Source of the DNA: Roseomonas sp.
GTDB lineage: Bacteria; Pseudomonadota; Alphaproteobacteria; Acetobacterales; Acetobacteraceae
Assembly (NCBI GenBank): GCA_020249775.1
Contig: JADCFA010000008.1
Span: forward strand, 186,001 to 250,000
Reading direction: 5' to 3'
DNA: 64,000 bases
Part shown: piece by piece, positions 51,288-52,772 of the stretch
How the letters are laid out: each line of letters begins with the position of its first letter
Position numbering within the stretch: the stretch's first letter is position 1
Notes under the pieces: model-generated
Seen by the model: only the letters and a program-made list of their open reading frames with translations
Told to the model about the DNA's origin: nothing
Databases searched by the model: none
Made by a program: the position numbers and the translations under genes

Positions 51288-52772
51288 ATGTCGCTTTACA
51301 CCTCTATGAACACTGCCGTGAGCGGGATGAACGCGCAGGCCCGTGCACTCGGGCACGTTTCGGACAATATCGCCAATTCACAAACCGTGGGGTTCAAGCG
51401 GACCGATACGAATTTTGTCTCCTTCATTACAGAAAGTAATGTGGACGTGCATCGCCCTGGCACGGTGCTGGCGCGACCGGACTTCGCCAACGGAGTGCAG
51501 GGCACTATTGAGCAGGTGGAAAATACGCTGGCGATGGCTATTTCCGGTCAGGGCTTCTTCCCGGCGGCCTTGCCTTCCAGCACCAGTTCCGATGGCACCA
51601 AGACGTTTGACTTGCGCAGCTTTTACACGCGCGCTGGAGATTTTAACCGCGATCGTGCGGGCTATTTGGTCAATGGGTCCGGCTATGTGGCGCAGGGCTG
51701 GCCTGTCACCAATGGTGTCGTGGACAAGTCGCAGCTTGTTCCCGTTCGGGTCCTGGAAGACGTATTCAGCCCCGTAGCCACGCAAGGCTTGACCTTTTCC
51801 GGCAACCTGGCCGCCGGCGGCACAACCGCGCAAAGCACATCTATTCAGGTGATCGACTCGCTCGGCCGCGCACGTTCGTTGGACCTGACCTTCACTCCTT
51901 CCGCCGCGCCAAATGACAATACCTGGACTTTGTCCATCAATGCGCCGCAGGCGGTAACGCCCGGCCTTGGCACCGCCAAGATAGCATTCGGGAAGGACCC
52001 TGTGAATTGGGCGCAGAACACCTCATATCTCGTTGGTGATAGGGTCAGTGCGAATGGTCAGGTCTATACTGTGACCACTGCGGGGACATCCGCAGCCACC
52101 GGGCTCGGTCCGAACGTCACGTCCGGCACTTTTACCGATGGCACTGTTGTCTGGACACATGTCAGAGCAGACGTTCCAACTAATCCAGACGGAACCTTGG
52201 CCGATATATACGGAGCTACGGGGACGCTAACCGCCAGCGCTGTCGCGACTAATGGCCCCGCTACAGTTAGTTTCCAAGCCGATTTCGGCCAGGGGTTGCA
52301 GACCATGACCCTCAATCTGGGCAGCTTCGGCACGGCCGGAGGGTTGACTCAATTTGCCTCCACCGGTTCCAGTGGCCTCAGCGTGAGCAGTTTTGAGCAG
52401 GATGGCGTTACGCTCGGTAAGTTTTCATCTGTCACCACGCAGAATAATGGTGATGTGCGGGTCAATTATGACAATGGCAAGTCCCGCGTTGTGGCGCGGA
52501 TTCCTGTGGCGGTTTTCAGGGATGCGGATAAGTTGGAACATGTGGACGGACAAGCCTTTGTGCGTACCGCCGAAAGCGGCGAGGCACGTATTGTCCAAGC
52601 CGGTGAAGATGGTGGCGGGCTTTTTTCCACGCGCGCTATTGAGCGTTCCAACGTGGACATCGCCTCCGAATTTTCGAAGCTGATCCTGGCGCAGCGCGCT
52701 TATTCGGCCAATACGCGCATTGTTTCCACTGTGGATGAGCTTCTGCAGGAAACACTCAACATGCGGCGCTAA
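51288..52772 (+). CDS. flgE: Flagellar hook protein FlgE with inserted ~52-aa module
   Basis: MSLYTSMNTAVSGMNAQARALGHVSDNIANSQTVGFKRTDTNFVSF; C-terminal SNVDIASEFSKLILAQRAYSANTRIVSTVDELLQETLNMRR. Confidence 0.96.
   Translation: MSLYTSMNTAVSGMNAQARALGHVSDNIANSQTVGFKRTDTNFVSFITESNVDVHRPGTVLARPDFANGVQGTIEQVENTLAMAISGQGFFPAALPSSTSSDGTKTFDLRSFYTRAGDFNRDRAGYLVNGSGYVAQGWPVTNGVVDKSQLVPVRVLEDVFSPVATQGLTFSGNLAAGGTTAQSTSIQVIDSLGRARSLDLTFTPSAAPNDNTWTLSINAPQAVTPGLGTAKIAFGKDPVNWAQNTSYLVGDRVSANGQVYTVTTAGTSAATGLGPNVTSGTFTDGTVVWTHVRADVPTNPDGTLADIYGATGTLTASAVATNGPATVSFQADFGQGLQTMTLNLGSFGTAGGLTQFASTGSSGLSVSSFEQDGVTLGKFSSVTTQNNGDVRVNYDNGKSRVVARIPVAVFRDADKLEHVDGQAFVRTAESGEARIVQAGEDGGGLFSTRAIERSNVDIASEFSKLILAQRAYSANTRIVSTVDELLQETLNMRR

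Follow-up and report, generated by a model that had tools for sequence, protein, structure and literature searches.

The hook of the bacterial flagellum, assembled from about 120 copies of FlgE, is commonly regarded as no more than a mechanical joint. Bacteria differ in the domains inserted midway in FlgE D2, which form extra D3/D4 domains, and an insertion at this place was tolerated in a chimeric Salmonella hook (PMC5069557). FlgL, present in 11 copies, exposes its own D2 at the hook-filament junction (PMC12221982). Further, flagellinolysin and other domains are found in the hypervariable region of flagellin (PMC5595980), and flgE of Campylobacter jejuni is a recombination hot region for which hypervariability under immune selection has been proposed (PMC4866539). 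Outside flagella, the C-terminal domains of the Pam1 tailspike are proposed to recognise extracellular polysaccharide (PMC9382816).

The window (the whole 64,000-nucleotide stretch of DNA that was analysed, from a freshwater Roseomonas-like bacterium) encodes an FlgE and an FlgL that share a module of about 53 residues, and this arrangement resembles each of these systems in part. In particular, the FlgE proteins of C. jejuni and Caulobacter crescentus also combine conserved hook domains D0-D2 with an additional domain inserted midway in D2, but their D3 domains have other sequences and folds unlike each other, whereas the Roseomonas insert is of phage-tail type and is present or absent between closely related species (PMC5069557). 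Flagellinolysin is likewise a foreign domain in an exposed part of a flagellar subunit with a patchy distribution; however, it is an enzyme in the flagellin of the filament, whereas here a decoration module sits in the hook protein and FlgL, and the flagellin lacks it (PMC5595980). As in C. jejuni, homologous recombination is concentrated in flgE, in a hypervariable surface region, but here a whole module is present in or absent from the exchanged segment, which passes from species to species in a genus that is free-living (PMC4866539).

Two structures are close to the module itself. The Pam1 tailspike (7eea) has the same small fold and shares the pattern W..G..N.Y...AGT....P..TSG...DG.V.W, although there it is a domain of a virus tailspike and here it occupies a loop of helical flagellar subunits. 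The CBM5/12 chitin-binding domain of ChiA1 (1ed7) aligns over the N-terminal two thirds (the W, Y, G and Y positions), with FlgE above the gathering score of the family; in contrast, the position of its Trp687 is not conserved, the flagellar modules are only 24-33% identical to ChiA1, and they end in a longer C-terminal part with a DGTVxW motif.

Results

A shared module in FlgE and FlgL

The features, by position in the window, are:
51288..52772, + strand: flgE, flagellar hook protein, 494 aa, with Pfam domains Flg_bb_rod, LlgE_F_G_D1, FlgE_D2 and Flg_bbr_C, all above their cut-offs; hosts module 1
51948..52307, + strand: D2 segment of FlgE, aa ~221-340, exchanged among species of the genus according to identity profiles, Fisher tests and permutation tests; exchange seen in relatives
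52002..52166, + strand: module 1 in FlgE, aa 239-293, CBM5/12-like and of phage-tail type, from PF02839, the AlphaFold (AF2) model and superposition on 7eea
52807..54327, + strand: flgK, between flgE and flgL, without the module (control); length and homologues collinear across the genus
54331..55557, + strand: flgL, hook-filament junction protein HAP3, 408 aa, with Pfam Flagellin_N and Flagellin_C; hosts module 2
54919..55074, + strand: module 2 in FlgL, aa 197-248, matching FlgE by BLASTP (E=1e-10), with PF02839 borderline
56003..56902, + strand: flagellin gene, 299 aa, after flgL, without the module (control); collinear across the genus

Foldseek searches with the AlphaFold models matched FlgE to hook structures (3a69, 1wlg and 6jzt, with Salmonella FlgE among them) and FlgL to the Salmonella hook-filament junction (9go6) and to HAP3/FlgL (2d4x). 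The identity of FlgL as HAP3 rests on this match, on its flagellin-type N- and C-terminal helical domains and on its position after flgK.

When the whole proteins are compared by BLASTP, one significant match is found, between FlgE 240-293 and FlgL 198-248 (27/54 = 50% identity, E=1e-10). A local alignment of the two modules has 27 of 53 identical positions and a score of 124, which lies 15.5 SD above the mean of 20,000 shuffles; none of the shuffles reached it, and the best scored 68. The first-pass annotation, which had noticed by eye a segment of about 52 residues shared by these otherwise unrelated proteins, thus withstands a pairwise significance test. Its coordinates were right to a few bases: the FlgE segment that it placed at 52002-52170 spans aa 239-292 (52002-52163), and the FlgL segment placed at 54916-55074 spans aa 197-247 (54919-55071), in frame.

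The Pfam family CBM_5_12 (PF02839) scores 31.5 bits against FlgE (cut-off 26.2), covering profile positions 1-31 of 44; against FlgL it scores 22.1 bits on the whole protein and 26.2 bits, borderline at the cut-off, on the isolated segment. For a profile made from one tailspike module and eight flagellar ones, the best match in the PDB is the receptor-binding domain of the cyanophage Pam1 tailspike (7eea, residues 493-545, E=1.1e-6), followed by chitin-deacetylase modules and ChiA1 (1ed7). The AlphaFold models have low-confidence ends and, in FlgE, poor terminal helices (mean pLDDT 64 for FlgE and 67 for FlgL); the FlgE module is predicted with block means of 82-92 (residues 241-290) and the FlgL module less certainly, with block means of 55-75 (residues 201-250). 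By Foldseek, the FlgE module superposes on 7eea at rank 43 (61 columns, rmsd 1.5 A, 33% identity, probability 1.00) and the FlgL module at rank 30 (52 columns, rmsd 2.8 A). The flagellar modules have both the 7eea fold and the pattern W....Y..G....n..Y....GtS...P.....DG.V.W. From these profile matches and predicted models, the FlgE and FlgL modules are classified as a phage-virion type of the CBM5/12 fold, and the likeness to phage-tail decoration or carbohydrate-binding modules proposed in the first-pass annotation is borne out by 7eea, PF02839 and the phage and tailspike relatives described below.

The placement of the modules in FlgE D2 and FlgL D2, read against published structures (PMC5069557, PMC12221982), indicates that they would be surface-exposed, which supports the earlier expectation of a position on the outer surface. 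Most likely, the module decorates the outside of the hook and the junction.

Distribution across the genus

The genus sample comprised 35 genomes, 34 of them with flgE and 32 in which FlgL was scored. The FlgE module occurs in 6 of the 34 (the window genome G000, G168, G154, G174, G152 and G166), 27 have a clean empty site in an FlgE of 430-441 aa, and one (G169) has its flgE split between contigs. The FlgL module occurs in 2 of the 32 (G000 and G168), while the other 30 have an empty site in an FlgL of 352-360 aa. When aligned with 20 relatives, the FlgE module falls opposite a short loop in FlgE_D2; it lies inside this domain, which is collinear on both flanks in relatives without it. Searches with FlgE across 150 genomes of the family returned matches that mostly break at ~236 and ~296, with few bases between the two parts in the genome. 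The FlgE module is a real in-frame insertion, and the first-pass description of it as foreign stands, as the segment is missing from most relatives rather than being a standard domain in all of them. Because close relatives do without it, the module is dispensable for assembly in general. FlgK and flagellin are collinear across the genus genomes.

All eight module copies found with the profile (E<=0.001) in the 35 genomes are in FlgE or FlgL; in the window genome, no match lies outside these two proteins, with flgK and the flagellin gene both free of the module. The module-bearing FlgE of G166 (L118/L155) is a 306-aa frame whose N-terminal part is not open in frame, possibly owing to a frameshift or an assembly error. 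In other genomes of the family, four FlgE proteins (L004, L025, L027 and L031) have longer insertions of unrelated sequence at this position in D2 or close to it, so the site takes several kinds of module; those of L025, L027 and L031 are ~200-300 aa long with 'VTINGxxxSYTA'-like units, which are repeated in L027 and L031.

Exchange of the D2 segment

On a tree of four flagellar proteins with the module columns removed (34 rows), the FlgE module requires six changes, of which at least three are forced by the starred branches alone, and the FlgL module requires two; for each FlgE carrier, the nearest relative lacks the module. Taken alone, this scattered distribution could also result from repeated loss from a module-bearing ancestor.

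The flanks of the insertion carry further information. The flgE genes of the sister genomes G168 and G167 are 88-98% identical in DNA over most 20-residue windows, but only 41-70% identical around the insertion, where G168 resembles G174, from another subclade, at 75-83%. When the module positions are left out, 59 of 73 informative sites in aa 221-340 of G168 side with the donor, compared to 26 of 275 outside (Fisher p=1e-32), for a segment picked after the identity profile had been viewed; Fisher tests of the D2 segment gave p values of about 1e-29 to 1e-40. A maximal-segment permutation test, in which the segment is not preset, located it at aa 229-330 (p<2e-4), where 59 of 63 informative sites follow the distant G174 as against 26 of 285 elsewhere. 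Similar exchanged segments were found in two other trios, making three in all (p<2e-4), and one of these is an exchange of the empty cassette. Overall, in two carriers a D2 segment of ~100-120 residues around the module resembles that of a distant species and not that of the sister, which identifies the exposed D2 loop as an exchangeable cassette. The insertion in G168 FlgL has much sharper edges, with no such wide exchange of its flanks.

The FlgE of the window itself gave no exchange signal in the trio tried (p=0.14), so the mechanism is seen in relatives and would apply to the window copy by extension. The flgE genes of G173 (L126) and G175 (L121), both with an empty site, are 90-98% identical over aa ~218-366 and mostly 71-83% identical in other windows; this segment is a cassette swap without a module. 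The FlgE core of the window is 88% identical to that of G168 (L112), but the FlgL proteins of the pair are only 62% identical, a mismatch which suggests that whole flgE genes have also been exchanged between lineages. The window FlgL is 67% identical to that of G153 (L127), with the insertion counted.

Identity between carriers is 69-88% for the FlgE cores and 42-67% for the modules. This divergence of the modules above that of the core, together with an exchange limited to the tip of D2, points to changing selection on the surface, as has been proposed for C. jejuni flgE (PMC4866539). One form of such selection would be escape, in which flagellotropic phages, predators or antibodies are evaded by varying the surface of hook and junction, and in which being different matters more than the identity of the module. 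Besides the two patterns just named, the four other FlgE proteins with unrelated insertions at this site or close by and the recombination hot region in C. jejuni flgE (PMC4866539) are in keeping with this explanation. However, the same phage-type module recurs, where random sequence would serve as well. Moreover, we know of no role of the hook as a phage receptor in this genus, and escape as the purpose of the module is put forward tentatively, with the odds somewhat against it.

Ligand binding

Alternatively, the modules may act as adhesins that bind polysaccharide (the mucilage of algae or cyanobacteria, chitin or the cell's own matrix) and give the flagellum a sticky base. In all eight flagellar modules, the column of ChiA1 Trp687, which we take to be a chitin-contacting residue needed for chitin binding, is non-aromatic, making canonical chitin binding unlikely. 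The C-terminal third is also unlike canonical CBM5/12, and the module in 7eea is one domain among several. Carbohydrate binding as a function, which the first-pass annotation had raised, does not follow from the family match, given the missing aromatic residue and an FlgE match confined to the first 31 of the 44 profile positions. Phage-type modules may bind through other residues. In favour of an adhesin are the CBM_5_12 match as such, the presence of related modules in tailspikes whose targets are sugars on the host surface, the polysaccharide recognition proposed for the C-terminal domains of the Pam1 tailspike (PMC9382816) and the two best phage matches, both to Microcystis phages. On balance, an adhesin is rather unlikely.

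Relatives outside flagella and origin of the modules

Among annotated phages, 16 records match the FlgL module with identities of 34-48%. Microcystis phages are represented, as are tailspikes and baseplate wedge proteins; a protein of Microcystis phage Mae-JY02 is 48% identical to the module. A tblastn search of phage genomes with the FlgE module gave no match at 0.01, and a search of viral_contigs with the FlgL module found no relative. Among cellular genomes, and with proteins named by reading their sequences, the module is present in two tailspike-like prophage proteins of the same family (L034 and L035), in a tailspike-like protein of Mucilaginibacter (L160), in a pilin-like protein (L163) and in many tail-tube-like proteins. 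By the same kind of naming, a Tad-like 732-aa frame of the class Alphaproteobacteria (L164) has several internal copies, and a PilY1-like 842-aa frame (L190) has two, which suggests that pilus appendages also acquire the module. Two further candidates (L036 and L038) were rejected as low-complexity or wrong-frame noise. Profile searches of 385 genomes of the class and 399 of the phylum returned tailspike-like, tail-tube-like, pilin, Tad and PilY1-like proteins, again assigned by reading; of the loci that were read, none outside the genus encoded a flagellar protein. The module is thus a promiscuous virion and appendage module of the CBM5/12 fold type.

The FlgL module of the window genome is 62% identical to the module of L034 and 56% identical to the FlgE module of the same genome, which is itself 56% identical to the module of L160. 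Among themselves, the flagellar modules are 42-66% identical and no closer to each other than to tailspike modules. These identities, calculated over only ~53 residues, suggest that the modules came from a phage-type pool rather than by a simple copy from FlgE to FlgL. We infer a phage donor, and with it a direction of transfer; relatives in pilus-type and Tad-type proteins (L163, L164 and L190) mean that a source other than a phage is also conceivable. No phage or prophage copy of the module was found in any of the 35 genus genomes, and with all eight copies being flagellar, no donor is left in them.

Copying within the genome, by which the FlgL module would have been duplicated from FlgE or the reverse in an ancestor of the species, is improbable. 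Both genomes with the FlgL module also have the FlgE module, as such copying would require, but in the window genome the FlgL module is nearer to the prophage tailspike than to its own FlgE counterpart. Moreover, the two modules of G168 are 50% identical, and its FlgL module is nearer to that of G166 FlgE (60%), although for so short a module this is not decisive. A DNA-level repeat between the flgE and flgL copies was looked for and none was found, so that a duplication, if any, was not recent; a recent DNA duplication is ruled out.

The weakest reading, that the module is an assembly artefact or else belongs to D2 as a regular, invariant component, has next to no chance of being right: most of the genus genomes are metagenome bins, but the module is in frame in six genomes from several independent projects, it scores as a family of its own, and the empty sites of 27 relatives exclude an ordinary D2.

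Discussion

The explanation that best accounts for these observations, with a probability of about 0.72, is that a phage-type module sits on complete hook and junction subunits, is exchanged with the tip of D2 and alters surface contacts. A small, beta-rich decoration module of the phage-virion CBM5/12-like type, which would have been drawn from the pool of modules in phage tail genes, is inserted into a loop of FlgE D2 that would point outward and into an exposed region of FlgL D2, forming an extra domain atop a complete hook or junction subunit. Within the genus, the FlgE module would spread and be lost as species swap the D2-tip segment by homologous recombination. Its most likely role would be to alter the contacts made by the exterior of the hook and junction, either through a ligand on some surface (host cell, matrix or glycan) that it binds or through a change in recognition by phages or predators that target the flagellum; selection on surface contacts may be inferred. 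More broadly, and as a tentative generalisation, hooks and junctions of this genus could form a display platform that borrows the receptor-binding or decoration modules of phages and swaps them between species, with a changeable function in binding or recognition.

The insertion of domains into exposed flagellar regions was already known, and it is the phage-type content and the pattern of exchange that are new. In the open-licence literature, no paper was found that describes FlgE or FlgL with a module of carbohydrate-binding type, nor one on a phage-tail CBM5/12-like module in both proteins of one organism, polymorphic among sister species and moving with a recombining D2 segment.

That a module of virus-tail type comes and goes between sister species suggests that the hook and junction meet the outside under changing selection. 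G168 and G167 provide a natural, near-identical pair of FlgE proteins with and without the module, whose effect is therefore directly testable. Further, flagella have one type of decoration module in common with phage tails and pilus-type proteins, a finding relevant to the movement of surface modules between viruses and cell appendages. Overall, the exterior of the flagellar base resembles a display site whose content can change.
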